Source: Macrocystis pyrifera (taxonomy: Eukaryota > Sar > Phaeophyceae > Laminariales > Laminariaceae). From it: a DNA stretch of 64,000 bases. Below the pieces are notes generated by a model. That model was not told the DNA's origin, searched no databases, and saw only the letters and a list, made by a program, of their open reading frames with translations. The DNA is taken from the NCBI GenBank assembly GCA_031763025.1, contig JASSKH010000031.1:1860001-1924000 (forward strand), given 5' to 3'. Every line of letters starts with the position of its first letter. The first letter of the stretch is position 1. Shown here piece by piece: positions 17,260 through 63,428 of the stretch. A program made the position numbers and the translations under genes.

Positions 17260-17324
<65 letters not shown>

Positions 17325-17365
17325 ATGCTGAGTGCTCGTGTGCTCGTGACTGCTTGGCCACAAGA
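16938..17365 (+). repeat. Tandem duplication, second copy expanded by CTG repeats
   Basis: The block 16938-17062 recurs at 17207-17365. Both contain, in order, an AACA/GCA-rich start, CAGGYGTAYGAGT, TCGAGTGTTNCTCGAGTG, a CTG-rich middle, GAGTGCTCGTGTGC and CTGCTTGGCCAC. In copy 1 the middle is short and interrupted; in copy 2 it is a long pure triplet run. The duplicated region is also rich in CTCGAG words. Confidence 0.7.
17263..17324 (+). repeat. CTG/CAG microsatellite, about 20 units
   Basis: A nearly pure triplet run (TGC phase) of about 62 bp lies inside the second copy of the tandem duplication. Long open frames on both strands here encode runs of Ala, Cys, Gln or Ser and are by-products of the repeat. 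Confidence 0.9.
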
Positions 17366-19583: not shown

Positions 19584-20044
19584 TGTTATGGAAATGTTAG
19601 CACATGGCCATGTATGAGTCAATGTTCAAGTAGCACCGCTCTTGTGTCGTAGATCATAGTCCATGTACCGTTTCGGCTTGTAACGTATATTATGCGGAGG
19701 AATAGCAGCCGTATCGTCCCTGCTCGTAGGACTGAGTATCGCAGCCGTATCGTCTCTGCTCGTCACTCTCTGGTGTGACCTCTACCCGGATCGTGATGGT
19801 ATCCTAGCTGCCTATCCATCTCTGGAAGCTGCCGTCATCTGGACTCCTGCATTCTCTGTGGAGTACATCTGTGTGTGTTGGCCATCTAAGCGCCAGTGTT
19901 TACGTGTTATCACGTCTTCTTCTCTCTACAGCACGGGAGTATCTTACTCCCCGGGCCATCGCTAGCCCGGTGTCATATCTCGGGTAACACCGAGGACACA
20001 GCCTCTGTCTACATTGCCAGGGTACAACGCAATAATCCATAATA
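19584..20044 (+). repeat. 5' LTR of the Copia element
   Basis: 461 bp, beginning TGTTATGGAAATG and ending CCATAATA, identical to the 3' LTR except for four transitions. The sequence directly after it (GGTTAATGAGCC at 20045) is the place for a tRNA primer-binding site; it loosely resembles initiator-Met sites of other Copia elements, but the tRNA cannot be assigned. Confidence 0.93.
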
Positions 20045-24974: not shown

Positions 24975-25435
24975 TGTTATGGAAATGTTAGCACATGGCC
25001 ATGTATGAGTCAATGTTCAAGTAGCACCGCTCTTGTGTCGTAGATCATAGTCTATGTACCGTTTCGGCTTGTAACGTATATTATGCGGAGGAATAGCAGC
25101 CGTATCGTCCCTGCTCGTAGGACTGAGTATCGCAGCCGTATCGTCTCTGCTCGTCACTCTCTGATGTGACCTCTACCCGGATCGTGATGGTGTCCTAGCT
25201 GCCTATCCATCTCTGGAAGCTGCCGTCATCTGGACTCCTGCATTCTCTGTGGAGTACATCTGTGTGTGTTGGCCATCTAAGTGCCAGTGTTTACGTGTTA
25301 TCACGTCTTCTTCTCTCTACAGCACGGGAGTATCTTACTCCCCGGGCCATCGCTAGCCCGGTGTCATATCTCGGGTAACACCGAGGACACAGCCTCTGTC
25401 TACATTGCCAGGGTACAACGCAATAATCCATAATA
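24975..25435 (+). repeat. 3' LTR of the Copia element
   Basis: 461 bp, beginning TGTTATGGAAATG straight after a purine-rich tract and ending CCATAATA, followed by the right copy of the CACAG target duplication (25436-25440). Confidence 0.93.
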
Positions 25436-25890: not shown

Positions 25891-26357
25891 CCCACCCAGG
25901 CCATAAATACCAGGATGATACAAATCTCGTCAATTTCTTTCTATCCTTCGAGCAATACAGTAGTCCATGCCTCCTACGCCAAGACATGCGAGAGCATCGA
26001 AGACTAGGCTACTACTCTTCGTTTTTTAGCAACACAGTAGCCCATAACTCATTTTACTCCGAGATCAGTTTTACATCAAAAAGAGGTGCAAGGGTTTTGC
26101 CTGCGTCTCCCTTTTCAACTTGCGACATCCCCCGGATTTCATGCCACCCGCATCCCGAAGGGGAGCCTTGTATACCATGCTAATACTATATACCCATGGG
26201 CTTCAGGCGCCACCACTCTCTTCATAAACATACGGACCGATTTTATTTACTATTAATATGCAAATGGTCGAATTATTTGGGTACAGTGTGGTATATACTA
26301 CTTCGTTCACCAGTACTATACTTTATATAATATACCATTGTTATGCTATATATACTA
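25891..26357. other. AT-rich spacer after the minisatellite
   Basis: Nothing coding is recognised. The last 150 bp are rich in TATA/ATAT words and lead into the MITE at 26358. Confidence 0.4.
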
Positions 26358-26462
26358 TTACGGGGGTCCATAGTTAACGGGACCAAATTTTGTTAGTAAA
26401 AATAGGCAAATATATAGGTCTTTATGTACACCATAGGTCCTGTTAACTATGAACCCCCGTAA
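26358..26462 (+). mobile_element. MITE, family A copy 1 (105 bp)
   Basis: The inverted ends TTACGGGGGTCCATAGTTAA and TTAACTATGAACCCCCGTAA are about 27 bp long and frame an AT-rich core. TA flanks both sides, fitting the TA target duplication of Tc1/mariner-like elements. Further copies lie at 43619 (inverted) and 52094. Confidence 0.85.
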
Positions 26463-26527
26463 TATTAATATCTATACTATACCAGCACTATACCATACAC
26501 CCCTACCGCAGCACGGGTGAAGCGCCT

Positions 26528-38839: not shown

Positions 38840-39040
38840 AGTCTTTGGGTATCGAATCGAAACATCATCAGATGTAGGCACCGGGGGGCGGGAGGGGGTC
38901 GAATCGAAACACAGTTAGACATGGGTAGGGGGAGTATCGAATAGAACAAAAAAAGTAGGATAAGGGGTGAATCGATTCGGAAGCATCGCCACAGGTGGGT
39001 ATCGGCTCGAAAACAAACCAGCGATAGGCAAGAAGGGCGA
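38840..39040. repeat. Degenerate repeat of ATCGAATCGAAAC type
   Basis: The words ATCGAATCGAAACATCATC, GTCGAATCGAAACACAG, ATCGAATAGAAC, GAATCGATTCGGAAGCATC and ATCGGCTCGAAAAC recur at roughly 30-60-bp intervals with G-rich spacers between. It is a degenerate minisatellite directly beside the LINE tail fragment. Confidence 0.5.
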
Positions 39041-39765
39041 GGGGGGGGGGGTGTGCTCATTATCATGCATGGCCGTAGTCGTATGACCATAGACCGAGCA
39101 TCCCTACAATGCCGGGACGGAGCGCGTCGGGTTTTCACCAACGAGACAGACATTGCTTGCACCAAGCGCGAAGCGCCGTGAGGTGTTGGGCGAGTCGCAT
39201 GAAGGGTGAGCTGGATCCTACTATGAACCGCTTTAGAGGCGGATTTTCTTGCGTATGGATGACAGCATCAATGAATTGATTTAATTTCGGGCGTGGCCAC
39301 TTCCAGAGACAGCAATGTGTTCACTATGTAGCTGCCTCGTGGGCGCCTCACCATATACACACTACGTGATACGATCATCCCCCTTGTGCGGAGTATAGGT
39401 TCTCCCCGCACAAAAATGCTCTAACTTGACCGCCAGCCGTAGTAGCCGCCAAAACAAAAAAACGGTATCCTGGTTTTCTAGCTCACGCAGTGAGAGGCGT
39501 GTTTTACAGCGTCGTCGCCAACCGACACCAACCCAACCTATATACTCCAGGTACATAATATAGGGGGGGGGGGCGTACTCATTTGTTGCTTTCCTTAGTC
39601 ATTTGACCATTGACCACGCATCCCTTTCGAGACGGAGCCCCGTTCCTACTCCTAATAGAGACACCTCCAACAATTGGGCGCTCATTATGTTGTTTCCATA
39701 TATTACATAGGAATTTTTTCTAATCTTATCCCCTTCCTGCCTGACCGCCGGTGGCCACCATCTAT
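39041..39765 (-). mobile_element. LINE 3'-end fragment, minus strand
   Basis: On the minus strand this is the C-terminal coding end and 3' region of the LINE found whole at 59.6-63.4 kb. It includes the GGCCACTTCCAGAGACAGC, TTGTGCGGAG and GGTTTTCACC segments and ends in an 11-base poly-C (G on this strand, 39041-39051). It is strongly 5'-truncated and diverged from its relatives by substitutions. I see no target duplication. Confidence 0.8.
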
Positions 39766-41841
39766 CTTATATGGGGGCGGCGGTAGGAGTTCGGCATTGA
39801 GTTTAGGGGACACACTTGAAGACAAACGTTCAAAGCAATGCACCCACCTTTAGCGATAGACCACTTAGAAATAGAGTGGAAGTGTCTATGATATGATGAG
39901 CAGTAATAGGGGCTAACGTCGCCAAGCCAGAGCACGCATTTCCTCCTCGCAAGCCGTCAGCTGCGCAAAAACACGTATGTCTGTCACATGATCTCGTGAT
40001 AGAGGCTACCAGGTATATGGAAACATCACGCACGCCCCCCATCCAAGTTTGCTGGTACTTTGTACCTTCAAACACAGAAACGTATGAGCTCATTTCCCGA
40101 GTCGTGGCACGCATGATTCAAATCCAACAATAATACTGCGGTATTATTTCACGCTGCCAGCGATCATTGAATGTAAGTGTTGGTTGGACTGGATGAGGCC
40201 CAAGTAAGGTATACACAAGAGGGAGTTAGACTTCGTGCGAAGGCTTCTTTTGTTTCGTTCATGTTGGTTTTCTTCTGCTTTCGGGAAAGCTTGTGGGTTA
40301 TCGACGGTAGAGCTCATTCTGCGTGCAACGTAGTCGGAGGGCCAATGCAGTACAAATAACGAAAGCGAATAATAATGTCAGTGATAGTAATAATGACACC
40401 ATTAACACACAAAACATAGATGTACCCTGACATTCAATACCAGCGAAACATAACACGACAGAGTAGAACAACATTGGATGGGTGAATGGAGTACCATCAC
40501 AACCACTGCTGCCTTGAAGGAGACCTCTAGAGCCTGTGGGCCCAAACATGCTGCATCGACCGTGCTTCTGCCCTCTGCCCACTATGCGGTGGGCCCTCAA
40601 CGACTGGTCAACGTGCCCAACTGGGCTAAATTGACACACGACACGAAATTGGGAACGTGGAAGTGTGGTGAGCTTAAGCTTTATTTTTACCAATCCGTCG
40701 GAGGATAAAAAAAAAAAAAAAAAAAAAATCAAGCATCGTTGACACATACATCCAATCCCAAAATTCGTTGTTCCGATTCGTTTCGTCGAAAATAATCGGC
40801 GTCGGAGGGACGGCAACACCATACCTGGTGTGACAAATCCGACACAATAAGACACAAAACAAGTACCAGGTACGTAAAAAAATGAAACAAAACTAAGATG
40901 TGGGCATCGTTTGACAACTTTGGATGACAGGAGCACATTTACGTTTTTCCGTCAACGTGGCGTGTATCTACTGCAGTTGCAGTCTGCTATAACGGATAGA
41001 CCGTCACCCCGCTGGCAGTTGTGCTGAATTTCGAAAATGGGCTGGCGCTCTTTATTCACAAGGCAGTTGCAGTAGCAGCCATAGCAGCAAAGGCAATCAA
41101 CAACAAAAGGAGCAGGAGCAGCAACAGCAAAAACACCCGCCACCACCAACACCAACACCAACAGCAAAACGCAGCAGCAGAAACCCCAAACCGTAACCTT
41201 CAAGTCTAACCCCGACCGCCTCCTGGGAAAGTTAAACGTCTAGGGAAAAAGCTGTAATGAGGAGTTTGTATGCGCACTATCAACCAACTAGTCCAAGCTG
41301 GGTCAAGTCGAACGCAGTACACTACTGCTGCTTGGCGGCACGCATGCCAGAGCAAAACAGTATGCCGAAAAAAAACAAATAAAACGTCATGGTCGGTCGC
41401 TCTATTTTTTCCTCTCGGCGACGCCGCGTTCGGAAACTTCCCGGAAAAAAAATAGGAAAAATCGTATTGCCCAGGAAAATTACTCTAGTTATATACCAGG
41501 AAGTTTTTGCCTCTGCAAACCAAAACTCAGTCGTAGCAATTGTCAGGAAAGTCGCAGGATACCCTTGATAGCTCTGCGATACAGCGCTCGACAGAGGGAC
41601 CCCTGACTTTGGTCGTGCGTCGGATTTCTAACCAGTGTTCGCTAACGCAATGGGTGAGAAGTCAATAGGGAAGTAAACATTATACCTCGCGAGAAGAAGT
41701 GCGGCCGATGCTCAACGTACTCACCGACGCGAACGCTTCCCGCGCTTTTTCTTCGCTTTGATCCTTCCATTCCCCTGGCCGTTCACTACCGACCCACGGT
41801 TGGCCATGCCACCCTGCGCCCGCCCCTGCCACCACATCAGT
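39766..41841. other. Spacer downstream of the unknown seven-exon gene
   Basis: No convincing gene. It holds a 22-base A-run (40707-40728), listed separately, and CAG/CAA-rich sequence at 41080-41190. The long minus-strand frame across 40298-40936 is produced partly by the A-run and is not trusted. Confidence 0.35.
40478..40728 (+). other. Short open frame ending in a poly-A run, possible retrocopy
   Basis: A 76-codon frame (40478-40708) stops immediately before a run of 22 A. This layout would fit the 3' end of a reverse-transcribed RNA, but no target duplication or parent gene is seen and the protein is not recognised. A chance A-run is equally possible. Confidence 0.3.
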
Positions 41842-44805
41842 TCACGCCGGCGGGCAAGCAAGCACGGGCGAGCTGAGGCTCAGGCTGGCGAGTGGGGGGG
41901 GCGAAGACAAGACCGGTGGTGTATATGGTGAAATATGAGCAGCGCTGCACTGCTGGTCGTACAAAGGCTGGCTTCAATCGCCCCATGTTTTGCCGGGTTG
42001 AGCGTTCGAGGTTTTCGATTGCGAAACGCGGCCTTGAGAAGATTCTCCTCACCTGAGCACGCCCAACGAAAGCCATACGGGGTTTGAGAAAAGCAAAGCT
42101 GCGGTTGTCCTTTGGCGCAAGAGCGAACACATTGCAAAAGAAATGACCGCGCGCCTGTGATGGTTCCCGGTTCCAAAACATGGACCTTGACCCAATGAAA
42201 TGCTGAGAAGCAGCGTAGTCGCTGTTTTGGTTTCTTCTTTATACAATGTGCTGAGGTCACACGGCATCAAGCTCTCACCGCCCCACCAGCATTCGTTTGG
42301 AAGACGTTTTTGCTAAATGCACAATTTCATGTGGGGCACAAGCGGTTCCCTGTCTTACCTGCGTCACTTCCCCTTGGGCTTCCGCGTCTTCTAATGCGGC
42401 AACGAATTCGGCGAGTTGTTCCGGTGTCATCTCCACTTGAGACTCAGCTTGCAGGCGGAGGATTTCCGCTGCTTCCTTGTCGTCCCCGGCGAGGTTTTCG
42501 GGTGTGGGGATCTCGAACGCTGCTACGAGAGCTTCGACCAACGGTAGCCCCGCCGCTCGTGTGACGAAGACGTCGAAGTGAGGAATGGAGGTCTTCAATA
42601 CCGCCAGCCCATTCACAGTCAGCTCGGGATCAGCGTTGACGACGGTCTCGAAAAACGCGATGTAGTCCTGCGCACAAACCGCCCCGAGGGCAAGCAGCAG
42701 GAACAAGCAGAGAGCGCGATGCTCGAGACATTGAATGATATGCGCAAGAGAGAGGGCGGGGATTTTAAGCGTTACTAGCAATGGATACTGACTCCCTCAT
42801 TCTACGTACGTACAAAGCCGGCGGTTGTTCCTGCCGCCAGAGTGGCCTTCCGTACTGCTTTCACTATTTGTACCAATAACACAAAACGAGATTTACAGGC
42901 CAAAAGTGTGGATCCGAAACGGCGAGTGCTCACTTCGGAGTTCCGTCCTTGTCGGTAGGCTTCTGCATAGGTGTCGACAACCAAACTTGCTAGAAGCCCC
43001 ACGCTCCCTGCAGGCCGCAGGGTGTCGCTTGAGGTCAATGCAGCCGTCTCCAAGTCGAGCTCCACGCTCTCGCAGAGCGAACACAGCTTCCCCTGTGATG
43101 AAACCGTTGGACGGGGCAGAGGGCGTGAAAAGTCTCTATGCGGCACGCGTGAGCAGAAGAAGAGTTCTTAGTGAAAGGCACTATCGCAGTGTCCGTCAAT
43201 CTACCGTAGCACAAATCCGTTACACTGGGTCAGCGAACAGCAACAAATCTTCTCGCTCTTCAGCCAGCCGTGCCGCCCCATGCCGCCCCTCGACGACGGC
43301 AGCCGACCGTGTCGCTCAAAATACACCAACTGGCCGGCCACAGCCTGCTTGCAAGCTTTCTGTCAATCCGCCGCCCCCTTACATATATGAAACCTTAAAA
43401 ATTGATGGTGAAAAAGCCGACCGGCCCCGTACCTCGCGTCCTTCTACCAGGCATCCGGGTACTGTAAAAACCTTACTCGAGTATACGAAATACTAAACGT
43501 AGATGCGGTTGGCGTCGCGTTCGAAGTAGTTTTGACTCCACAATTACATCCCGTCCGCTCTTCCCTGTGTGGACGAACGATGCCACCAAGAGCGAATTCT
43601 CCGTTCCCTTTACTGATATTACGGGGATCCGTAGTTAATAGGACCCATGGTATACATAAAAACCTATATATTTACACATTTTTACTAACAAAATTTGGTC
43701 CTATTAACTATGGACCCGTAAATAGTAACATTGCGCTCTCGGGGCAATATCGCCACCGTCGTCTCCTCACCATATCCCCACCATAGCCGTTGGCGCTTGC
43801 AGAACAAGCGTCTAACGCACGCGCCGCGATGGCGATGCCCCACTTGAGCTTCAACCACTCGGGTTCTCCGTCGGGAGTTTCCCGCTGTGCAACGTTCGGG
43901 CGGTCCCCCCCGCGGAGTGTCTGTACCACCTCTACCGCAAGGGATGCGCCGAACTCCGTGCCCTCGTCGCTGTCGTGAGCGCTCCACCTGTCGCGCTTCT
44001 CCTCGATGTAGCCTATCAAGAAGTTGACGAGGTCCTGCCGAAGCGACGCAATCGATCGGTATCCCCGGTAAATAGAAGTGGCATCAGTCGGGTGTGCTGT
44101 CTGCGGCAGCAAGTACCATGATGATACCTGGCATATTCCGCTCGCATGTTGCTTGCGGCGCCCCCTAGTTTGCTTCGCACACCACCATCGCCACAAGATA
44201 CCCGGCAGGGAGGGGTGCAACGAGCAAGAGGCCAACGAGCAAGAGACGGGGCCTGTGACGGTCGGCTGCGTTTTTGTACCCCGTAGGAGACAAAAGATAG
44301 AACCTGTGTGTGCCGCCTCACCTTGGGCTTTCCGTCGAGTCCACCGAAGGCCCCGCCGCGGCATCGTGCCGCCTCCAGCTTCTCGATGAGATTTCCCAGG
44401 CGATTACGGCTTTGCACGGCCCACATCAGGACCATAATCATCCAAGATGTCCCGAAACAATTGCCATCGGCGTCGACGGTTAGGGCATACCCCGAAAACC
44501 ACCTCTTGACCTCTCCAATCGCCGGATTCTTACTCCGGTAGAGATCATCGAAATTGGACAAAGGCTGCCCGAGTGTTGGGAAACGCGGTAACAGCGGTCG
44601 GCGGCGCAGTGGATTTGACGTTTGAGGGCCGAATAAAAACTGGGCACCCGGAAGCGTGCGGCATAGGGTATCGCATGCACTAAATATTCAAACCGGTCAT
44701 ATATTGGTGCACAACCCAAACCTCGCCGTCGTACAAATCGGGTGGTGTGTCAACATCGCGAGGATGAGAAGATGGCAACGTTGGGGGCGTCGCCGTCGAC
44801 TGCAT
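41842..44805 (-). CDS. Seven-exon gene of unknown function (450 residues)
   Basis: Reading the minus strand, exons are 44805-44722, 44564-44322, 44100-43771, 43092-42934, 42667-42359, 42154-42053 and 41967-41842. Every intron has GT and AG ends and every junction falls in phase 0; the exons sum to 1353 nt, with ATG at 44805 and TGA at 41842. The start was chosen because it is in frame with exon 2 through a phase-0 donor after DLYDGE. The protein has an acidic N-terminus, ALTVDADGNCFGTSW near residue 60 (the DGNC resembles the cysteine motif of OTU proteases, but the rest of that family is not evident), a middle part with LRQDLVNFLIGYIEEKRD, then a helical acidic part (MTPEQLAEFVAALEDAEAQG) and a Pro/Ser-rich tail. 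There is no signal peptide: the hydrophobic stretch read through before exon 5 is the intron's pyrimidine tract. A family A MITE sits in intron 3. Function unknown. Confidence 0.68.
43619..43721 (-). mobile_element. MITE, family A copy 2 (103 bp), in an intron
   Basis: Same terminal words as copies 1 and 3 (TTACGGGG and CCCGTAA), but the core is inverted: the TATACATAAAAACC side comes first. It lies in intron 3 (43093-43770) of the unknown gene, about 50 bp from the exon 3 donor. The right end is slightly eroded. Confidence 0.85.
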
Positions 44806-48531: not shown

Positions 48532-49826
48532 CGCGCCGCACCGCCGCTGTCCCGCCGCTGCCGCTGCCACCGCCACCACCGCTGCTGCTGCTGCTGCCGC
48601 CCCTGTAACAACGTTGCTTAGCTGCTGTGACGATGTGATTCTGCCGTGTTGCCACCGTCAAGGGCACATTTGACTCGCGCCTGAGGCCCTGCTTCAAGTG
48701 TATTTGTTAGTACTCCAGTTTTACTCGTGATGGGATGCAATCGCTCGGCGTGCGGCCACCCCGGTGTCTGGCTGGCACGTCGGGTACCAGCTTTCTTTTA
48801 TGGGTTCGAGGGCTTTTCTCTTCACGTTAAAATCGTGTTTTCCGGCGTATCTCCAGCGATTGTTACGTAAAAATCGAGTAAGAAATAAAAATATATCAGT
48901 ATATTAAATAGAAATGTACTTGTTCAATTGGGAGTGCCTGTCGAAGTTCAGTATCAAACAATTCGTCGCCTGCAGCGAGAAATGATAGGTGACGGGGCAT
49001 GCTTCTGTGGACCATGTGGATGCTCTGCTGCTGCCGAGGTAACCCGTATTGCTTGCTTCACCTTCACTGTGGCCACTCCGAAGGAAAGCTTGTACAACGC
49101 TGATCGCTTTACGTGGTATACTCCTGTCTTTGAAAAAAAAAACAGATTTTCGGGGTAGTTACGGCTGCGATACTATTTTTGGTACACATATCATAATGAC
49201 AATTTATGGCACCCTGCCAAAAACACCATTACTTCAGCACTGACCCTCGGAATAGCTCGCTAAATATACTTTTGTATGCGGGAGATGATCTCTTCCACGA
49301 ACGAATCATCACTAAAAACACCCCATAGTCAGGAGACCATATACTTGAGTTTTCCTATCTCTGAGGCTTTTTTGCTAAAATAGTTGAGTGCGTGAGACCG
49401 ATTTTGCGCCTAAGAAAAAAATACAGAGTATCATGTAGGCCGTTACAGCGCATTGATAACCCTACCCCCCCCCTACCCCCCCCCCCTGCCCGCCCGCCCG
49501 CCCCAACACAAAGGTAGTGATACAATAGGCCACCATTGTAGGCTAGACTCGACCTGGTACACTTTGCTACATAAATTTGGGGTTTGTTGGTAAAAAAAAT
49601 AGCATGTTTGCATGTACCAAAAAGCGCGAACGCAACCCCTGGTAAGCAGTGCTTTCAGAAGTCAATCATCGTGTACCAAGTGCGAGAGCACATCGGAGCG
49701 GGGATACCGGCGATCATCCCTCTACTGTAAGGAAATAAACAACAAAAGCTCACCAATAGGTACACGGACCACATACAATCAACACCCCCGGAAAAAAAAC
49801 CGAGACCTGCACTTTTCGCTTTGAGA
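48531..49826. other. Spacer with no recognised gene
   Basis: Short frames only. A second C-rich patch lies at 49463-49503. Confidence 0.35.
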
Positions 49827-49886
49827 ATCCGATGACCCAAGCCGTCGGATTTTGGGTCAAAATCCGACGACTTGAGTCATCAGATT
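49827..49886. repeat. Inverted repeat (hairpin) at the edge of the 126-bp duplication
   Basis: CCGATGACCCAAGCCGTCGG and CCGACGACTTGAGTCATCAG are near-perfect inverted arms, extended by ATTTTG and CAAAAT, around a short GGGT spacer. The right arm is also part of each 126-bp tandem unit. Confidence 0.7.
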
Positions 49887-50109
49887 TTCAAATCGAAAAA
49901 TGACATGCTCTCTAATTCAAGATGTTATACACGACAGCAAACAGCAGCAGAACGATCGATGAGTTGGATGGTGACACAGCTGTCAAAATCCGACGACTTG
50001 GGTCATCAGATTTTCAAATCGAAAAATGGCATGCTCTCTAATTCAAGATGTTATACACGACAGCAAACAGCAGAAGAACGATCGATGAGTTGGATGGTGA
50101 CACAGCTGT
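49857..50109 (+). repeat. 126-bp tandem duplication
   Basis: Two adjacent units (49857-49982 and 49983-50108) share TCAAAATCCGACGACTTG through TGGTGACACAGCTGT with only a handful of substitutions. The near-identity indicates a recent duplication. No protein or RNA is recognised in it. Confidence 0.85.
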
Positions 50110-51111: not shown

Positions 51112-54036
51112 CTAGCACCACCGCCGCTGGTACCATCCCCTCCCCACCTCTCGCGTCCACCGCCATCGTGTCGCACCCCCCCCCCGCTCTCCCGAGCCCC
51201 TGCCATTGAATGAGCGTTCGCCAACATCTTGCCCGCTTCGTGGTTTAGCAGTTGCGCCGTGAACCCACTCGACCTGGCGGCCCATGTTCGGCTTGACGCG
51301 CCCCGCGTTCTCGACAGCCTCGCTCTCGCCTGCCTTGTGGTCGAAAGACAGGGAGCCGGTTGACCTCGTGTTCCCGGTCATCAGCCGACGAGTAGCGGCG
51401 AAAGACACCGGGGCCGTCGAAGGCGAAGCCTGAGCAGGGGGACACAGCGAAGCCTGGACGGAACGTGAAACCTGAACAACGCCCGGAGGTGGCTTGTTGG
51501 GTCGCTGTTGCTCCGAACGCTGCTTCTCGGCGAGCTGCTGTTGAGCGCGCGAGAGAGAGAGAGCGGGGGGGTGGGGGGGGAGAGGGGTACAGTAGAGAGA
51601 GAAAGGGAGGGGAGATACGGCGAGAGAGGTATATCGAGAGGAACAGACAGACAGACAGGGAGGGAGACAAACAGACAGACAAGAGTTAACACAAGACAAA
51701 CAAACACTTCAGACAGACAAATAGACAGATCAGTTCAGACAGACAGCTGGTCGAAGCAGCTAGACAGACAGACAGAAAGACAGCTAGTCGGAGCAGCTAG
51801 ACAGGCAAACAGCTAGACAGCTAGACAGACAGGCGACATAGTAAACAGAACACCAACCCCCAAACAATTCCATCTACGGACTGCACAGTACATCAAGTCC
51901 TGATAAGTCGCATCTACTGACTCTACAGTACATCAACCGCCGACCTACCTTCCTGCAGGTGCCATTACGTTTCTAGGCCAAACTACTTGGAATTTGGGCG
52001 GAGGGGGAAAGCAGTCCTAATACAATGAAATCGCGGCACCGCATAACCGCGAAAGCCACAAAAATAAAGAACAAACCTAAAAAAAACAAGCTATTACGGG
52101 GGTTCATAGTTAACGGGACCACATTTTGTTAGTAAAAATAGATAAATATATAGGTTTTTATGTATACCATAGGTCCTATTAACTATGGACCCCCGTAATA
52201 GCTTTCTGCACACAAGCTAGGCGGTCGTTCCGCACGCAGGACATATAGAGAGAATCAGCCAACCACCCCCGCCCCAAAACAGCAAACTGAGAGACCAAAA
52301 ACGCACGACCCACCGCAAGCATCAATGTCGCCACTACCACCCCCACCACAACCATCGCCATCACCAGCATCACTATCACCAACACTACATACCGCAATCA
52401 TCATCGTCGCTATCATCAACATCACCCCCATCGTGGTTATATATATTATTCGTGGGTTGGGTTGGCGTCGGCTGGCAACGACACTGTAAAACATGCCGCT
52501 CACTACGTGAGCTAGACATCCAGGGTAACGTTATTTTTGTTTTTGTTTTTTTGGAGGTCGCCCACAGCTGGTCGTCGAGTTAGATCATTTGTGCGAGGTA
52601 AAGAACCTTTACTCTGCACAAGGGAATTGATCGTATCACGTAGTGTTCAAGGTAAGGCACCCAAGAGGCAGCTACATAGTAAACCCATTGCTGTCTCTGG
52701 AAGTGGCCATACGCCAGATTTGAAATCAATTCATTGATGCTGTCATCCATATGCAAGAAACTCCGCCTCTAAAGCGGTTCTTAGTAGGATGCAGCTCACC
52801 CTTCATGCGACTCGCCGGACACCTCACGGCGCTCCGCGCCTGGTACAAGCAATGTCTGCCTGGTCGGTGAAAACCCGACATGCTCCGTCCCGGCATTGTA
52901 GGGATGCGAGGGTCTATGGTCATACGACTACGGCCATACATGAGATCAAGTACATATCTCCTATCGAGTACACCCCCCCCCCCCCCCCCCCCCCATCGTG
53001 GTCCTCACACTCGTCATCGCTAGTACCATCTAACCATCATCGTTCAAAGTCACGAAAAAACGAACAAAAATGAAGCAAGCCACCTCACAAGCCGACCCTC
53101 CTCCCACTCACCTCCACGTCCTTCTCCTTCTTCTTCTTCAGAAGGGCCACCTCCTGTGTACCCTTCTCCTTCCCGGCCTCCGCCACTCGTAACGCCTCCC
53201 GGAGACTCTCCAACTTCCCCTTCATCTCCTCTTGGGACGCTTTCGCCGCCTTCGCCGCCTGCGATTTCTCCAACCGCGCGTCCTTGATTGCCGAGGAAAG
53301 TTCCGCAAGTTGTTCCTCAGAACGGTCTCGGAGCGTCTGCAGTTCCGCGCGGAGGGAGTTGGCTTCCCGCCCAGCTTCCAGCGCTTCCTCCTGGGCTTCA
53401 GACAGCGCCGCCGCGGTGCGTTCTTGGGCACCGGTGGCGGCTTGAAGGGACTTTGCGTGGTCTCCATGAGCCTGTTTATTGAATGAATGTGTTAGCGGAA
53501 GCGGGGAGGGGGGGGGGGGGGGGGGGGGGGGGGCGGGGGATGACGACAAGTACGTAAGGGGGGTGGGGGGTAAAATACTTTGTTTGACTGTTTGCTTGTT
53601 TGTGTGATTGGTTTATTGTTTCTTTGAGTTTGCTTTGTTGTCTATGCGTTTGGTTGCTGTTTTAGTTTGCCTTTTTGTTGATTCGTTTGTTTGATTTGAT
53701 GTTATTTGATTCCAGTTTTGGCTGCTGCTCGCTCATTAGCATTTCCAATTGTTGGCCTGCCACACAACAAACGAATTTGAAAACAAACAGATATAAGCAG
53801 TACAAACACAAAAACCACACCTTCGAGAGCTTGACCCGCAACTCCTCCAAGGCGGCCTTAGCCTCGGCTTGGCTTGCCGCTTCTCGGCTTGCGGCTTCTT
53901 GGCTTGCCGCCTCGGCTGCCCCTTCCGCCGCCCGGGCTGTCTCGTCGATAGCCTGCCTCGCGGCCTCGAGGTCCGCCAGCACGTCGTCTACCTCCCTTTG
54001 CTTGGTTACAAGAGCATTTTCCGCTTCCGCCAAGCG
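51112..54036 (-). CDS. Coiled-coil protein gene, three visible exons (5'-incomplete)
   Basis: On the minus strand I propose exons 54036-53821 (72 codons), 53471-53112 (120 codons) and 51537-51112 (141 codons plus stop). All have AG before and GT after where needed and all join in phase 0. The first two encode uninterrupted heptad-like helix rich in Ala, Glu, Lys, Arg and Gln (for example LAEAENALVTKQREVDDVL and DARLEKSQAAKAAKASQEEM); the last encodes a Pro/Ser/Gly-rich tail. A long cytoskeletal or scaffolding coiled coil is plausible, but no family is assigned. The intron before the last exon has taken in a LINE tail (52438-52993) and a MITE (52094-52198); the other visible intron holds a 26-base G-run. 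Upstream exons are not found: beyond 54036 lies the large palindrome. Copies of the second exon occur in both palindrome arms, and a related exon at 63463 (+). Confidence 0.6.
51545..51840. repeat. GA-rich then GACA repeat tract
   Basis: 51548-51620 is GA/GGGG-rich and 51640-51835 is dominated by ACAG/CAGA units, with a longer unit (AGACAGCTAGTCGGAGCAGCT and variants) repeated two or three times near 51745-51825. It lies in an intron of the coiled-coil gene, just upstream of the last exon's acceptor. Confidence 0.7.
52094..52198 (+). mobile_element. MITE, family A copy 3 (105 bp), in an intron
   Basis: TTACGGGGGTTCATAGTTAA and TTAACTATGGACCCCCGTAA form its ends; TA flanks both sides within AGCTA...TAGCT. 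It has the same orientation as copy 1 and only a few substitutions from it. It lies in an intron of the coiled-coil gene. Confidence 0.87.
52438..52993 (+). mobile_element. LINE 3'-end insertion with target-site duplication and poly-C tail
   Basis: The segment matches the last about 0.55 kb of the LINE at 59.6-63.4 kb and ends in a poly-C run of about 21 bases. CATCGTGGT at 52429-52437 is repeated at 52994-53002, a 9-bp target duplication. The interrupted sequence is the ATC-rich intron of the coiled-coil gene, whose uninterrupted relatives are seen in both palindrome arms (57290-57350 and 57880-57960). It shows that the C-run is the true 3' end of this LINE. Confidence 0.88.
53508..53533. 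repeat. Poly-G tract, 26 bp, in an intron
   Basis: It lies 35 bp upstream of the acceptor of the 120-codon exon of the minus-strand coiled-coil gene, so in the transcript it is a C-run near the branch region. Confidence 0.9.
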
Positions 54037-54379
54037 CTGAGAAGTTTTGAAGGGAGGTAGTGTTCGAGGGTTAGTGTTCAGAGGTTGCGCCGACAAGTGC
54101 CAAGGGCGGGGAGCCGTGGCGGGGAGCCGTGGCGGGGAGAGGCAGAGATGTGGGGGGGACGGATGATTGAGGGCTGGCGTTTCCCCTACTTGGAGCGATG
54201 ATCAGATATTTTCGGGCGGATACCTTGGTGCGAAGGTGGGGCGGGGGGGCGATGAGGTGGACAATTCTACCAGGCAGAAGCTTTTGCGTAATTATTATAA
54301 TCTTGAAACGACACACGTTGTTCTTCCTCGTTGGAATGCATTGGCGGCAAGCGGGGTGGAGGAGGGGGAAGGGAGGGGA

Positions 54380-55505
54380 CGGGGGGGGGGGGTACTCGAT
54401 ATCATGCATGACCGTCGTCGTATGACCATAGACTCTTGCATCTCTACAATGTCGGGACAGCGCACGTCGGGTTTTCACCGACCAAGCAAACATTTCTTGC
54501 ACCTGGTGCGACGCGCTGTAAGGTGTGCCGTGAGTCGCATGGAAGGGTGAGCTGCATCTTACAAAAAACCGCTTGTGGGGCGGACTTGCATATGGATGAC
54601 AGCTTCAATGAGGTAATTTAATTTCGGGTGTGGCCACTTCCAGATACAGCAATGGGGTTACTATGTAACTTCCTCTTGGGTGCCATAACATAAACAATAC
54701 GTGATGCCATCGTTCCCCTTGTGCGGTGTAAAGGTTCTCCGCCCCGCACAAATTAACTAACCCGATCACCAGCTGTGACCGACAGCCAAACGAAATAAAA
54801 AACGGAACGCTGGAAGTCTAGCTCACGCACTGAGCGGCATGTTCTACAGTGTGTTGCCGACGGACGCCAACCCAACCGACATATAACATATATACCCTGG
54901 TAGAGAGGGCGTGCTTCTTTGTTTCTTGCCTCAGTCGTTTGACCCTTGACCACGCATCCCTTTCGAGACGGAGCACCGCTCCTACTCCTACTAGAGGCAC
55001 CCCCAACAATTGGGCGCTTATTACGTTGTTTCCATACAACACACAGATTGTAAATTTGCTAGTCTCATCCCCTTCCTGTTTCGCCGCCCGTGGCCACCAT
55101 TTCTCTCCTAGGATAGCGACTGTTTTCTCGCTGCTGTCTATAATAGTGTAACAAACTCCTTCATGTTACATTCGTCTGTCTCCCTCATCTCCTCTTCTGA
55201 CACATCTTCTTCCTCCTTGTACCTTTCACATTATCCTACGATGCAAGTTCTACCCTCTATTGCTTTGCCACACGGACACATCTGTGCATCTACTTCCCCC
55301 TCCTCCCGGCTACTGGTGTACTTATTTCTTCTTTCGGGCAGGTCCAGGTCCCCTACACGAAATCGCAGCTTCAGCGTTTTCGCGAAGTTCGTAGGGGCCG
55401 CCCAAATACCTTTTCATTCCTATCCCTTCGCTCAACCTCCCGTACATCTCCCAAGCGTTTTCCCGATTCCACCTGACTTCTTAGCGGTAGCCTGCTACTG
55501 TACTA
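54380..55505 (-). mobile_element. LINE 3'-end fragment, minus strand, in the left palindrome arm
   Basis: It ends in a 13-base C-run (54380-54392, G here) and holds the about 0.55-kb 3' module plus about 0.55 kb of the C-terminal coding end, whose sense strand is minus. The apparent plus-strand frame 55163-55528 is its antisense. The matching fragment in the right arm is at 58868-59490. Confidence 0.82.
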
Positions 55506-55517
55506 ATCTACAATTAA

Positions 55518-56404
55518 GGGGACGCTAGCACGCTCAGGAATGCGTCGTCAAGTATCCGCTCGTAGGTGTTTCGGCAACGAATAAAGACGACTTGGAACTA
55601 GAGCGAGGGATTTGCAACCAAGATCCGTATTTCGTGGTTGTAGAATGGTCGACGCAAATATACGAGAATCCTGAGCTTCGTGGCCCGTTTTTGTGCTTTT
55701 TCGGGCCCAATAAATTACTACCCATCATGGAAACGTAGTTTTGCGCCTAGCAGCATCTTCGACGACTCCCTAAGAGATATAACATCCGCCCTGACGAACA
55801 GCAATCTTATAGTGAAGACCGTTTCTTCATCGATGATGATGTGGCCATTTTGTGCTATGCTCCCTTGCGTGAAAATAAAGACATTTTAGCGTTTTTTTTG
55901 CGAGCTTTTTGTGATACTCGCTCGCAATTTCGAGTACGCGAAAACATCTCGTGAGTCGTTTCTCGCTGCCTACGACGGCCGCTTTGGCACACCCGACTCC
56001 CTCATGGACCTCATCATGGGCACCCCTCAATTTCGCGGGCTGTAGTCTCCTGTGATGAGCTGTAGCTGCCCGCAAGTGAAGCGTGAAACGTTCGGTCGGG
56101 GGTTGTTTTTCTTCTCATCTTGTGCACCCCATATTTCCGCCGGTTTCAAACACTGGAGTACCTTTTAGTCGAGGTTTAGGCCTCTGTTGAGAACCTGCGG
56201 AGGATCAACCTCGAGAGAAATCCAAGCAGCTGTCATGAACCTCTAACAAGTTACCGTCGCTCTCCGGTAAACACCAACCGGCCGAAGTTCTAAACGGAGC
56301 GTGTTAAGATAGCGATTTTTTTTTTTTCTGTTCCGATTTAACATCTAGATATCAGAGTCACCGGAAACCCGGGGACCAGGGGACGTTTGGGTGCCAGCGT
56401 CCCC
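55518..56404. mobile_element. 887-bp DNA-transposon-like insertion with TTAA-type target
   Basis: GGGGACGCTAGCAC at the left and GTGCCAGCGTCCCC at the right are 14-bp inverted repeats with one mismatch. They are flanked by TTAA (55514-55517) and TTGA (56405-56408), while the right palindrome arm shows the unfilled site with a single TTGA (58857-58860). A TTAA-type target recalls piggyBac-like elements, but no transposase is recognised. Inside, the plus strand has coding-like stretches: 55549-55737 with QDPYFVVVEWSTQIYENPEL, 55799-55953 with EDRFFIDDDVAILCY, and 55957-56045 with AAYDGRFGTPDSLMDLIMG. They lie in different frames and look like the remains of one gene of unknown family. Confidence 0.65.
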
Positions 56405-57604
56405 TTGAACTCACACACCAGGTACGAAGTACATACTCTATATAATCCTGAAAACATCTCTGTCTGTCTGTCTGTCGCAATGATGTCGTCGTTCAAAGCT
56501 TTTCAGTCCCGCCTTGCCGCATGGTACTCGGAGAGACTTGGGGACACAACCAGCGGAACACTGGGACTCATGCCGTGCCGAGCGGTGGTCTTCGCGTGTT
56601 GACCATAGCCGATAATCCCGAGGTCATCCCGGGCCATAAAGTTAGCATTGCCGCTACGTTTCTATTTCAAGCTCATACAATACGTAGCCGATTGGCCGAG
56701 TCGACTTCTGCCCATAGTCCAAACCCATGCCAGCGGCCGCGGGCATTGTTCTAATACGTTAGTAGGTTAATAGAATGTAGAGCCAGTTTGCTCTTCTATC
56801 TTCTCCCTGTTGTGTCTGTTTTGTTTTACCCGTTTCCCGTGTCCCTTCTTGATCATCTCTTCTTTATCTCTCCTGTTTCATTTGTATTTTTCCTGTACGC
56901 TTCTGCCAGCGCAAGGGGGGGTGGAGATCGAATCAGCGGCACGACTCGAGGTCCCAAGAGGCTTGCAGGCCGGAAACTTATATCTCCGACTCAACAGCGA
57001 CTTTGCTGACCTCGAGGAGACTACAGCCGAGCAAAGGGGGAATCCCTTGCGGAGGCAAACTCAACGGGGATGATCCGAATTAAGTTAGCACGAAATCGAG
57101 AAAACGAGACGATCACAAAAAACAACCAACAAAGTCAACCGCCGCCGCCCCTCAAACAACAAACTGCAACACCGAAAACGCACGACCCACCGCGCACACC
57201 CTTGTCACCACCACCACCGCCATCAACGTCATCATCACCAGCATCACTAGCATCATCCCTGTAACCGCAACCACCATCGTCGATATCACCAACGTCATCC
57301 CCATCATCACCCGTACAACTCGTCATCGCTAGTATCATCATACAATCCTCATTTCACAGTCACGAAAAAACTAAACAAAAAAGAAGCAAGCCACCCCACA
57401 AGCCGACCATCTTCCCACCCACCTCCGCGTCCTTCTTCGTCTTCTTCTCCGTGCGGGCCATCTCTTGTAGAACCTTCTCCTTCCCAGCCTCCACCACTCG
57501 TGACGCCTCCCGAACACCCTCCAACGTTCCCTTCATCTCCTCTTCCGCCGCTTTCGCCGCCTTCGCCGCCTTCAATCTTTGCAAGCGCGCGTTCTTGACC
57601 GTTC
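56405..57604 (-). repeat. Left inner arm of the palindrome
   Basis: It pairs with 57619-58860 reversed. Shared landmarks include ACTCACACACCAGGTACGAAG (outer edge), CTTTTCAGTCCCGCC, GTCGACTTCTGCC, AAGGGGGAATCCCTTGC, CAAACAACAAACTGCAACACCG and GCCCGCGGC-like words. The arms differ at many positions and by small indels. Confidence 0.85.
57423..57604 (-). pseudogene. Coiled-coil exon copy, left arm
   Basis: On the minus strand this encodes KAAKAAKAAEEEMKGTLEGV and on to KKTKKDAE, followed by a GT donor at 57422. It corresponds to the second half of the 120-codon exon at 53112-53471, but its upstream half is lost at the palindrome centre, so it is probably not a working exon. Confidence 0.6.
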
Positions 57605-57642
57605 AGAGCAAAACCTCAGAACGGTCAAGGACGCGCGCTTGC
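57581..57642. repeat. Hairpin at the palindrome centre
   Basis: GCAAGCGCGCGTTCTTGACC (57581 on) and its near-perfect reverse complement ending at 57642 form 24-bp arms (23 of 24 paired) around a 14-base loop, 57605-57618. The loop falls inside what was one coiled-coil coding exon. Confidence 0.85.
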
Positions 57643-57800
57643 AGAAATCGCAGGCGGCGAAGGTGGCGAAAGCGTCGCAAGAGGAGACGAAGGGGAGGTT
57701 GGAGGGTCTTCGGGAGGCGATACGAGTGGCGGAGGCTGGGAACGAGAAGGCTCTACAGGCGGTGGCCCGTATGAAGGAGAAGACGGAGAAGGACGTGAAG
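57619..57800 (+). pseudogene. Coiled-coil exon copy, right arm
   Basis: On the plus strand it encodes VKDARLQKSQAAKVAKASQE through EKTEKDVK with a GT donor at 57801. It matches the second half of the 120-codon exon more closely than the left-arm copy does. Upstream coding is lost in the hairpin. Confidence 0.6.
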
Positions 57801-58860
57801 GTGGGTGGGAGGAGGGTTCGGCTTGTGAGGTGGCTTGCGTCCCTTTTGTTTATTTTTTAGTGACTGTGAATGATGATGGTTTGATTGGTACTAGCGATGA
57901 CGAGTGTGAGGATGATGACGAGCGTGATGTTGATGATAGCGACGATGGTGATTGCGGTTATAGTGATGATTCTGGTGCTACTGGTGATTGATGATGATGA
58001 TGTTGATGGCGGTGGTGACAAGGGTGCTTGCGGTGGGCCGTACGTTTTCGGTGTTGCAGTTTGTTGTTTGGGGGGCGGTGGCGGTTGGCTGGCTCTCTCT
58101 ATACATCCGCCGTGCGGAATCAATGTCTAGTTCGTGTGCAGAAACGAAGCTTGGTTCTTGAGTTTTGTTAGTTGTTTTTGTGGTTTTCTTGGTTTCGCGA
58201 TTCCGTTGCTATTTAATTTGATCATCCTCGTTACGTCTACCTCAGCAAGGGATTCCCCCTTGCTCGGCTGTAGTCTCCTCGAGGTCACCGAATTCGCTGT
58301 TTAGTCGGAGTGTCATTTTTACTGCCTGTAGACCTCTTGGGGCCTCGAGTCATGCATGCGCTGATTCGATCTTCACCCTCCCTTGCGCTGGCAGGGACGT
58401 CCAGGATAAATGCAAATAAAACTAAAGGGAGAAAGAAGAGAGGATCAAGAAGGGACACGGGTAAGGGGTAAGACAAAACAGACACAACAGGGAGAATAAC
58501 CTCTAACCAACATGTTAAAACAATGCCCGCGGCCTCTGGCATGGATTTGGACTACAGGCAGAAGTCGACTCGGCCAATCCGCTACGTATTGTATGAGTTC
58601 AAATAGAAAATGTAGCGGCAAAGCTAACTTTATGGCTCGGGATGGCCTCGGGATTATCAGCTATGGTCAGCACGTGAACACCACCGCTCGGCACGGCATG
58701 AGGCCCAGTGTTCCGTCGGTTGTGTCCCCAAGTCTATCCGAGTACCCATGCGGCAAGGCGGAACTGAAAAGCTTTAGACGGCGACGTCATTTGCGACAGA
58801 CAGATATATATTTCAGGATTACATACAAATTATTCACTTCGTACCTGGTGTGTGAGTTGA
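57619..58860 (+). repeat. Right inner arm of the palindrome
   Basis: Reverse complement of 56405-57604, with the uninterrupted TTGA site at its outer edge, where the left arm holds the 887-bp insertion. Confidence 0.85.
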
Positions 58861-58867
58861 ACTATAA

Positions 58868-59490
58868 ATCAATACAGAAGCAGGTTAGCGCCAAGAGGTA
58901 AGGTGGAGTCGGAACATACTTACGAGATGTACGGGGGGCTGAGCGAAGGAGTAGGAAAGAAAACACTTTTGCACGGTCCAATGGACTTCGCGAAAACGCT
59001 GAAACTACGAAATTCGTGTAGGGGACCTGGACCTGCCACAAAGAAGAAATATGTATACCAGTATTCGGGAGGAGGAGGAAGTAGATGCACAGATGTGTCC
59101 ATGTGGCAAAGCAATGGAGAGTAGAACTCGCAAAGTAAAAGAGTGTGAATTGTACAATCAGGAACGGGATGTGTCAGAAGAGGAGATTAGGGAAATAGAC
59201 GAATGTAACATGGAGGGGTTTGGCGCACTACTATAGATAGCAGCGAGAAAAAACGATCGCTATCCTACGAGATAGATGGTGGCCACAGGCAGAGAAACAG
59301 GAAGGGGACAAGACTAGCAAACAATGTATATGTATTTTATGGAAACAACGTAATGAGCGCCCAACTGTTGGAGGTGTCTCTAACAGGAGTAGGAACGGTG
59401 CTCCGTCTCGAAAGGGATGCGTGGTTCAATGGTCAAAGGACTTAAAGCAACCAACAAATGAGTACGCCTCTCCCCCCCCCCCCTCCCTCT
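58868..59490 (+). mobile_element. LINE 3'-end fragment, plus strand, in the right palindrome arm
   Basis: It begins at the AGCGCCAAGAGG region matching 62300 and keeps the C-terminal reading MCPCGKAMESRTRKVKECEL, a possible zinc-binding end. It closes with ACAAATGAGTACGCC and a C-rich tail without the about 0.55-kb 3' module of the left arm copy. Confidence 0.8.
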
Positions 59491-59614
59491 CCTCGCCTTC
59501 ACCCCGACCGCCAATGCATCCAACGAAAGGAAACGCGTGCCGTTTCAACATGAGATTATTTACGTATCTGGTACACGCTTTTGCTGGGCGGAAATGTTCG
59601 CCTCATCACGCCCC

Positions 59615-62600
59615 CCCAACATCATAGGAAACATCTGTATGCCCCCAGAGTCAACGAATACGATAAAATATATACAGAGGAAGTTCGGAGAAGTAGCAGT
59701 AGATGTACAAAAGTATAAAAGGAACGGAGAAGTAGTACTAGTGGGAGATTTTAATTCTAGAATTGGGAAGGCAAGCAAACTGAATGAGAACACCGGACAA
59801 TATGGGGAAGTAACAAAGAATAAGAATGGGGAAGAGATGTTGAAGTTCCTCAACCACAACGAGATGAAGACGTTGAACGACAGAGTAAAAAAGGCAGAAC
59901 CAGAACGGACTAGACAGTGCATACAAAAGGGAGAAACCTCTATCCTTGACTTTTTAGTGGTAGAAAATAGACGTGGACTGCATATATGCGCCGCGGACGC
60001 AGGAACTACGGATCACTGTATAATATGGACAGACAGTCAACAGACGAGAGTTATCAAACATAGACGAGGAAGGAAATTACATGGATGGAGAATAGATAAA
60101 CAAGAAGTAAAAGAGAAACGGGAAGAGTTCTAAAAAGAGATGGCCAAAAGTGCAAAGCAATTTTCCAAGCTGTTGGAAAGAATAGGTACAACAAGGAACG
60201 ATATGGAGAGGGATGATGCAGGAGCTAGGAAAATAGAAGGATGCGAGCAGTTGGTCAAGACCACAGCAAGTAAAGTATTAGGGAAGAAGTTGATAGTGTG
60301 CAACAGAGCAGTAAAATAGTGAGATGAAGAAGCGAAAGAGGCTATAAGAGCAAGGAGAAAGTCACACGCAAGGTATACGTCGAGAAAAACTACGCAATGG
60401 TGGGAGGAATACGCTATAGCTAAAAAGAAAGTAAAAGAGATGGTAGAGAAGAAGAAAGGGACATGGAAAGGCGTAGTAAATAAAACGAATAAAGACTTTG
60501 AGGGCGGGATGAAGCAGATGTGGGTAGGGATAAAAGGGATGCTGGGCAAACAAGCAGGAGACACAGACACGGGAATAGCTATTCTAAGAGCACAGAACGG
60601 TAAAATGGATAGTAGTCCAAAGGGGAAAAGGGAAGCACTAGTAGAGCATTGCCGAAAGCTAGGAACACCCACAGCCAACAAAATGTTCGACGCAGAATTC
60701 GAGAAGGAAACCAACGCGTGGGCAGAGGCGAACGTAGATACATCAGAAAGGGAAGACAGTGGTTCGGGAGGGTTACAGAGAGAGTTCACAAGGGAAGAAG
60801 AAAAGAAGTGTGAAGCTAAACTTAAGAATAGAAAGGCAGCACGGGCAGACCAAAATAGTGAAAGAATTTATGAAGTACAGGGGAGAAGGAATGCTTACCA
60901 TAATGGTTATGTTGTATAACTGGATATGGAAAGACGAGTACGAACCTAGGAGATGGAGAGAAGGAGCAGTAGTAAACTTATTCAAGAAAGGATATAAGGC
61001 TGACCCGGGGAACTATAAAGGGATAACGCTACTAAGCACAGTAGGCAAAACATTTTGCAAGATCTTGAGCGATAGAATGGGAACGATAATGGAGAAGGAA
61101 GACAAAATAAGCGAAGGGCAAGCAGGGTTTAGGCCAAACCGTAGCTGCGTAGACCATGTGTACACCTTAGGTAAGATTATTCAAGGTAAGAAAGACGCGG
61201 GACTAACAACGTACTGTTTCTTTCTCGATGTGCAGAAAGCCTCCGACACAGTATGGAGAAACGGATTGAGGAAAAAAAACTGTGGGAAATAGGAATCAGA
61301 GGAAAGATGTAGAGAATGATAAAAAAAATGACGCAATGTTTGAGAAGTGCTGTGATGCTGGACGGGAAATATCGAAGTATGTTGGTATTTTACAAGGAGT
61401 TGCGCAGGGATGTACGTTGTCAACTAACTTATTCAAGATATATATTAACGACCTGATAGTAGCAGTCGAGGCAGCAAGGCAGGGAGTCATGGTAGGGGAA
61501 GATACGGTGTCTGGATTGATGTTTGCGGATGACTTCGTGGGGGTATCAGAAACATCCGAAGGATTGCGGAAACAAATAGAGAAGGAGCTAGAATACACCA
61601 GGAAATGGAGGGTGACGGCGAACGTCAAAAAATGCGCAGTAGTTGTTTGTAACGAAGATAAGGTAAACCAGGTAAATTTCAGTTGGAAGTGGGGAGAAGA
61701 TGAATTGCCGATCGTAGACCAGTATACATACCTTGGCGTAGAGATCTCAAAAGACTGCTCTTGGGATACACATATAGCAAAAGTAGTAGGAAAGGGTCAG
61801 GCACAAGTAGGCAAAATGGATGCGATCCTAACAGACTCGAGAACCTTGACACTAGGATTGAGAGATGTATCCTGATGAATGTGATAGTACCAAAGCTAGA
61901 ATATGCAGGAGAAGTATGGGAAGGGGACGCGAAATTCGTAAAACAGTTGGAAACAGTACAAATGACAGCAGCTAAAAAAACTACAAGATGCTCAACTACG
62001 ACTAGTAATACAGTATTAAGAGAATAACTGGGAATGCACCCACTCAAAACAAATAGAGACATGAGAAAGTCGAACTGGCAATATAAAGTAAGGAACATGC
62101 CAAAAAAGAGATTGCCAGTCATAGTTGACAAAGCAATATGGGAGAAAGTAACAAAAGGGCGAGCTGGAATAAGGTGGGATGGCGTAGTTGAGAAAGTATG
62201 GAAGGATACAGGGGGAAACCAAGAAGAGGTGATGCCCGCCGGGAAGTTTGGGAGGTACAAGCCAGAAGTAGAAGAGAGGATAGAAAGAAGGAAAAGGCTA
62301 GCGCTAAGAAACAAGGTGGAATCGGAAACTTAAAGATGTACGGGGGGTCGAGGGAAGGAATAGGAATGAAAACGTATTTGCACGGCCCAATGGACTTCGC
62401 GAACACGCTGAAACTGCGCTTTCGTGTAGGGGACCTGGACCTGCCAGAAAGAAGAAAGGGGTACATCAGTACCCAGGAGGAGGAGGAAGTAGATGCACAG
62501 ATGTGCGCGCTGTGGCAAAGCAATAGAGCGTAGAACTCACACAGTACGAGAATGTGAAATATACAAGGGGGAACGGGATGTGTAAAAGAGGAGATGAGGG

Positions 62601-63428
62601 AAATAGACGAATGTGACATGGAGGAGTTTGATACAGTGAATAGCAGCGAGAAAACGATCGCTCTCTTAGGAGATACTTGGTGGCCACAGGAGGCCAAACA
62701 GGAACGGGATAAGATTAGCAAAACCTTTCTATGTAATATATGAAAACAACGTAATGAGCGCCCAATTGTTGGAGGTGTCTTTATCAGGAGTAGCAACGGT
62801 GCTCTGTCTCGAAAGGGATGCGTGGTCAATTATCAAATGACTAAGGCAAGCAACAAATGAGTACGCCCCCCCCCATATTATATACCTGGTATATATATAT
62901 ATATAGGTCGGGTTGGCGTCGGTTGGCGACGACGCTGTAAAACATGCCTCTCACTGCGTGAGCTAGACAGCAAGGGCGCCGTTTTTAGTTTTTGTTTTGT
63001 TTTGGCGGTTACCACGGCTGGCGGTCAAGTCGGAACATTTTTGTGCTGGGAGAACCTTCCCTCCGCACAAGGGGAATGATCGTATCACGTAGTGTGTATA
63101 TGGTGAGGTACCCGCGGGGCAGTTACATAGTAAACCCATTGCTGTCTCTGGAAGTGGCCATACGCCAGATTTGAAATCAATTAATTGATGCTGTCATCCA
63201 TATGCAAGAAACTCCGCCTCTAAAGCGGTGCTTAGTAGGATGCAGCTCACCCTTCATGCGACTCGCCCAACACCTCACCGCGCTACGCGCTTGGTGCAAG
63301 CAATGTCTGCCTGGTCGGTGAAAACCCGACATGCTCCGTCTCGGCATTGTGGGGACGCGAGGGTCTATGGTCATACGACTACGGCCATGCATGATAATGA
63401 CTACACCCCCCCCCCCCCCCCCCCCCCC
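59615..63428 (+). mobile_element. LINE (non-LTR retrotransposon), 5'-truncated, decayed
   Basis: The plus strand encodes the second half of an AP-type endonuclease (VLVGDFNSRIG near 59750 and TTDHCIIW near 60010), then reverse transcriptase: NYKGITLLSTVGKTFCKIL (61010), EGQAGFRPNRSC (61118), motif A FFLDVQKASDTVW (61220), motif B GVAQGCTLSTNLF (61400), motif C GLMFADDFVGV (61510) and YTYLGVEI (61722). It continues through KVRNMPKKRLPVI (62090) and a C-terminal part that ends with a TGA near 62857. The reading uses three frames and crosses several stops (for example TAA/TAG at 60131, 60318 and 62026), so it is inactive. The endonuclease N-terminus is absent, which is typical 5' truncation. The 3' region ends in a 23-base C-run. 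Clade not assigned. Confidence 0.9.
62860..63428 (+). other. 3' region of the LINE ending in poly-C
   Basis: It starts after GAGTACGCC and a first C-run (62866-62874), then a TATA-rich patch, then about 0.5 kb of conserved non-coding sequence (GGTTGGCGACGACGCTGTAA, GCACAAGGGGAATGATCGTA, GGTGAAAACCCGACATGCTC, TATGGTCATACGACTACGGC) and the terminal C-run. The same module ends the copies at 39.04, 52.44 and 54.38 kb, but is missing from the copy at 58.87 kb, which stops at the first C-run. Confidence 0.8.

Follow-up and report, generated by a model that had tools for sequence, protein, structure and literature searches.

A 5.4-kb palindrome in Macrocystis pyrifera best explained as an old fold-back inverted duplication around a coiled-coil exon

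A palindrome of 5.4 kb lies in the 64,000-nucleotide stretch of Macrocystis pyrifera DNA analysed here (the window). We believe that it is best explained as a fold-back inverted duplication of half a coiled-coil exon, an intron, a segment Z, a LINE tail and its flank, which now persists as a decayed relic (probability about 0.78). The points that we treat as established are the common start base of the two arms, the trace of the exon continuation kept at the centre, the common LINE truncation point with its flank, and the strong divergence of the arms. Positions in the window are as follows.

54243-57608, minus strand: left arm, read outward as E, X, Z, 891-bp insertion, T, Y and F (from alignments)
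57615-59617, plus strand: right arm, read outward as E', X', Z', T and F' (from alignments)
57581-57642, no strand: central hairpin, with stem 57581-57604 / 57619-57642, loop 57605-57618 and, within the loop, an inner 3-bp stem leaving a 6-base loop (57609-57614)
57599-57624, no strand: 26-base centre, between the points where the arms cease to match the paralogous exon
57406-57598, minus strand: E, left copy of half of the coiled-coil exon
57625-57817, plus strand: E', right copy of the exon half
57133-57305, minus strand: X, intron sequence, left copy
57924-58144, plus strand: X', intron sequence, right copy
56405-57133, minus strand: Z, segment of unassigned origin, left copy
58164-58861, plus strand: Z', right copy of segment Z
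55516-56406, no strand: 891-bp insertion, left arm only, with inverted ends AAGGGGACGCTRGCAC identical at 15 of 16 positions
54903-55510, minus strand: T, 5'-truncated LINE tail, left copy
58865-59472, plus strand: T, 5'-truncated LINE tail, right copy, followed by a C-run
54392-54897, minus strand: Y, block after T in the left arm (the right arm lacks Y)
54243-54391, minus strand: F, common outer flank, left copy with its C-run
59473-59617, plus strand: F', common outer flank, right copy with its C-run
53088-53474, minus strand: paralogous exon, uninterrupted, used as reference; the arms match it only from 53287 downward
52205-52434, minus strand: third copy of intron X, parted from its exon by a later insertion of Y, with CATCGTGG on both sides
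59621-63428, plus strand: later 5'-truncated LINE (endonuclease and reverse transcriptase pieces) with Y, at the right edge, with CCCCCCCAAC on both sides

Opposite-strand self-alignment of the window gave a palindrome span of about 54243-59617. The initial annotation had described a five-kilobase palindrome with modules in mirror order at 54262-59612; the structure is real and its limits move slightly outward. The anti-diagonal was seen at 57133-58090 against itself (964 columns, 83.6%), at 56405-57133 against 58164-58861 (81.7%) and at 54903-55510 against 58865-59472 (81.9%). From the centre outward, both arms carry the exon half E, intron X, segment Z, the LINE 3' tail T and the flank F, and both LINE tails are directed outward, as first described. 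The arms are mirror copies of one segment joined at one point, which is expected of a fold-back. The flank beyond the LINE tails, put earlier at about 110 bp, is indeed shared, and 54397 down to 54243 aligns with 59460-59617 over 167 columns (82% of ungapped columns) when the C-run and short element ends are taken in. The left arm is longer, mainly from the 891-bp element between Z and T and block Y between T and F. These two extras, and a third exon-intron copy at 52.2-53.3 kb, had been missed in the initial annotation.

When the later LINE was excluded, the best blastn match continuing the palindrome past its edges was only 25 bases long (E 0.005). With masking off, tblastx gave numerous short matches past the edges in mixed orientations, with E down to 6e-9; in our judgement these reflect coiled-coil and poly-C composition and no homology. 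Outward of each arm, a coiled-coil exon with a phase-0 start was recognised by eye, at 54.04 kb on the left and 63.46 kb on the right. No DNA similarity between these two exons was found by blastn, and their proteins are only about 31% alike over 85 residues with composition correction off; therefore the palindrome stops before them.

Long-read libraries are known to yield palindromes as artefacts, and an unsplit hairpin read or a chimeric clone could produce one in an assembly. The arms of such artefacts would be expected to be near-identical or to differ mainly by indels. Here, over 1,758 aligned bases from E through T, a comparison that leaves out the 891-bp element, there are 256 substitutions (164 transitions, 92 transversions) against 31 gap events, of which 21 involve a single base; identity is 85.4% and the K2P distance 0.164. 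The 891-bp inverted-end element is also present in one arm alone. Because the arms diverge mainly by substitutions and each carries its own later insertion or deletion, an assembly or library artefact is extremely unlikely.

The same data bear on age. The arms are about 15% diverged and contain later insertions and a deletion, so the palindrome is old and decayed, not young and unstable; the initial emphasis on instability is not supported, since these features describe a long-lived structure. As an illustration only, a rate of 4.07e-10 per site per generation, given for Ectocarpus in the available part of PMC10254074, would turn the K2P distance into about 2e8 generations, and this rate may not be that of the host. 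Identity along the arms ranged from 79 to 91% in 17 blocks of 100 and was not significantly uneven (p = 0.18), and on these values we rejected gene conversion, whether close to the centre or within Z. In intron X, the arms are 85.5% identical to each other and 79.7 and 80.1% identical to the third copy. Two other modules count against grouping the arms together: the right arm's E shows 88.4% identity with the 53-kb exon but 85.1% with the left arm, and the LINE tails are 84.0% identical between arms and 85.1 and 85.4% identical to the neighbouring LINE. We infer that these distances would be reconciled if the duplication came soon after the LINE insertion and rates were unequal.

At the centre, the 24-bp stem with a 14-base loop was confirmed, with 23 Watson-Crick pairs and one G.T pair. 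When the whole window was scanned for 20-bp stems (up to one mismatch, loop of 3-20 bases), this hairpin was the only one detected, in four registers. Folded as DNA, 57406-57817 reached -194 kcal/mol, whereas shuffled sequences averaged -75 (z -27) and none of 100 did as well; the RNA fold of the centre reached -55 kcal/mol (0 of 200 shuffles as good).

The paralogous exon made it possible to read the junction. The blastn matches of both arms to this exon (287 and 281 columns) begin at base 53287 and go no further, and the exon itself extends to 53474, 187 bases past the point where the arms stop. The sequence beyond the fold point, 53288-53474, is lost from the copies, as a fold-back predicts. 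Its best match in the whole palindrome is the stretch 53315-53327, identical over 13 bases to 57614-57626 at the centre (E 0.033); all 13 other matches have E 1.4 or more, the centre match being the only one with E below 1. A fold-back also predicts a short centre spacer derived from sequence beside the pairing site, and this was found, on short sequence. The centre shares 11 bases with the upstream exon, and a match of this length, on either strand, was reached by 21 of 20,000 shuffled centres. When the centre is aligned with the 40-base exon continuation, the scores for the two strands are 24 and 26. A score of 24 was reached by 10 of 5,000 shuffled centres with the continuation, and by 24 of 12,770 overlapping 40-base segments of the window with the centre. 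The predicted place is present on both strands among the first 15 of these 24 segments, together with unrelated places.

The basis of this centre test is 26 bases and one paralogue, and some observations count against a fold-back. The centre shows a match to the exon continuation on either strand, as palindromes tend to do, and parts of the window that have nothing to do with the locus align with it equally well. Gapped local alignments traverse the centre to about 53341, and the exact stop depends on the aligner. From sequence, we read the 26-base centre as the probable shortened remnant of a fold-back loop.

Two inverted copies could also arise with no fold-back, if the segment were duplicated in tandem and one copy then inverted. 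Duplications did happen here, and the further exon-intron copy lies about 4.3 kb off in direct orientation to the left arm. This route leaves unexplained why both arms start at the same exon base, 26 bases apart, and why these 26 bases look like the 40 that come next in the exon. We therefore consider it unlikely. A fold-back accounts for the same start base in both arms and the 26 bases between them because one folded strand end yields both.

In the fold-back that we favour, the source segment would have comprised the coiled-coil exon half, the intron, Z, a 5'-truncated LINE insertion and the flank, and would have been mirror-copied once. A single strand ending inside the exon would fold back about 40 bases from its end and pair over a few bases. 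The candidate pairing is CGGTC (53323-53327) with GATTG (53286-53290), which holds only via two G.T pairs and would imply a spacer of about 32 bases. In a post hoc test, such 5-base pairing at that offset, with G.T allowed, was found at 490 of 63,940 window positions. From this pairing, synthesis would run back for about 2 kb, across the exon, intron, Z, LINE tail and flank. The mirror copy would be joined to other sequence, presumably by a second joining, and replicated, and the first loop would have shrunk. The trigger may have been a double-strand break or fork template switching, either strand may have folded, and either arm may be the original. The initial annotation had suggested fold-back replication or repair of a hairpin-capped break. 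Inverted duplication by fold-back agrees with the same exon start base and with a centre that keeps adjoining sequence, and hairpin-capped repair is inseparable here from fork template switching.

The LINE tails help to order the events. LINE homology sets in beside Z in both arms, at the corresponding positions 55493 and 58882, and the flank that comes after it is shared; therefore the LINE tail was inserted before the duplication. In three places (39 kb, the left arm and 62 kb), T is followed by block Y and the junctions are similar; in the right arm, T runs directly into the C-run and flank. The simplest account is that Y was lost between two C-runs in the right arm. As read from the sequence, later events would include the 891-bp insertion in the left arm, the insertion of Y between exon and intron X in the third copy, and the arrival of about 3.8 kb of LINE and Y at the right edge. 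The LINE pieces at this edge match Exo_endo_phos_2 (2.4e-6) and RVT_1 (8.2e-9 and 3e-10). T/Y sequences with similar 3' ends are located at 39035-39767, 52435-52994, 54371-55510, 58865-59480 and 62295-63428. GAGTAC precedes the C-run in three of four T copies and two of four Y copies, and the rest differ by one or two bases. Y looks as if it were a dependent element sharing the reverse transcriptase of T. In the available part of PMC12477816, Ectocarpus is described as having abundant RTE-X LINEs and a 600-bp dependent element resembling their 3' end, to which the likeness of T and Y is similar.

A foldback-type or long-TIR transposable element that had taken up a gene fragment and inserted as a palindrome would also present long inverted arms with a captured gene half, and the surroundings are rich in repeats. 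A direct repeat was absent outside the outer ends when AAGGTGGGGC was compared by eye with AACCCTTACC (later LINE excluded) or AACATCATAG (later LINE included), the ends being C-runs and not sharp. An ordinary LINE insertion lies inside the arms, and self-alignment found the whole palindrome only once in the window. Such an element is quite unlikely, and we keep the fold-back duplication as the preferred explanation. Three ORFs of Z had no Pfam match up to E 0.1 that would make Z a known element. In viral contigs, a pattern of the LINE reverse transcriptase piece gave 30 matches, none of which was confirmed, and the 26-base centre pattern was absent; a 22-base LINE-tail pattern was absent from the genome contigs and viral contigs searched.

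Other repeats are present in the window, whose Copia-, Gypsy- and LINE-like pieces, together with apparent spliced exons, are of a eukaryotic kind. An inverted-end element of about 115 bp occurs in three copies 87-93% alike (26355-26464, 43616-43727 and 52088-52204), and one copy breaks into the third exon-intron copy. A Copia-like element at 19582-25435 carries RVT_2 and zinc-knuckle matches and has end repeats of 463 bp (19582-20044 and 24973-25435); the end repeats are 99.1% identical, so the element is probably recent. Gypsy-like pieces lie on the minus strand at 30720-36558, with RNase H-like matches at 34049-34966, and raised G+C and strand skew were observed around them from 31 kb on. 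At 49856-50109, a unit of about 126 bases occurs twice in tandem, the copies being 98% alike, and this pair overlaps a 93-base imperfect inverted repeat at 49810-49902. A TGC repeat of about 23 units (17263-17330) can be read as poly-Ser or, on the opposite strand, as poly-Ala. Rfam (at the gathering threshold) and tRNA scans of the window found nothing.

The central sequence had been called a former exon, and this fits. Both central exon copies are open over 60 codons, and identity of the exon half with the paralogous 53-kb exon is 82-88%. Between E and E', dN is 0.188 and dS 0.103 (4 synonymous and 23 non-synonymous changes), small numbers that indicate no protein constraint. Against the 53-kb exon, the left copy has dN 0.195 and dS 0.231 and the right copy dN 0.133 and dS 0.105, again from small numbers; the 53-kb exon may likewise be without strong constraint. 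A hairpin RNA could form from the centre, as far as its modelled structure goes. That the palindrome is transcribed as a long hairpin, yields small RNAs acting on the coiled-coil gene family and has been kept as a small-RNA locus seems very unlikely. The best reading is a relic without evident function.

This kind of rearrangement is already known. The following comparisons draw on the available parts of the cited articles. Yeast fold-back inversions at double-strand breaks resemble the present case in their small central spacer, in that one side is mirror-copied and the sequence across the break is lost and, if the candidate pairing holds, in their short inverted pairing (PMC10622511, PMC7467729). 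Of three wild-type fold-back events in yeast, two had a 35-bp spacer and relied on a 5-bp inverted repeat, and mismatches of the paired repeats were corrected in sae2 mutants (PMC10622511). The yeast cases are newly arisen laboratory clones, with duplications that mostly stop at repeated elements (PMC10622511, PMC7467729), whereas the palindrome here has arms of about 2 kb and is internal and old. In human fold-back inverted duplications with a disomic spacer, 13 of 21 sequenced junctions had inverted microhomology of 2-8 bp (PMC3907307). Like the present palindrome, they hold an unduplicated spacer between mirror copies; it measures 766-70,466 bp in humans (PMC3907307), whereas here it was at most about 40 bases and is now 26. 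ODIRA, a fork template switching process, also forms mirror junctions, there at short inverted repeats, and interstitial copies are possible (PMC10766183). It is described as giving inverted triplications (PMC10766183), whereas two arms and a partial third exon-intron copy are found here.

Literature on Ectocarpus, palindromes and inverted repeats contained no title on such a locus among the matches listed, and we do not claim absence. As far as we found in the parts of these articles available, the fold-back duplications described are new events in yeast and patients. The present palindrome is an old example in which the start base and a loop remnant are kept and a paralogous exon serves as reference, so that the junction is readable after long decay. 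It also indicates that divergence of the arms can allow a nearly spacerless palindrome to persist.
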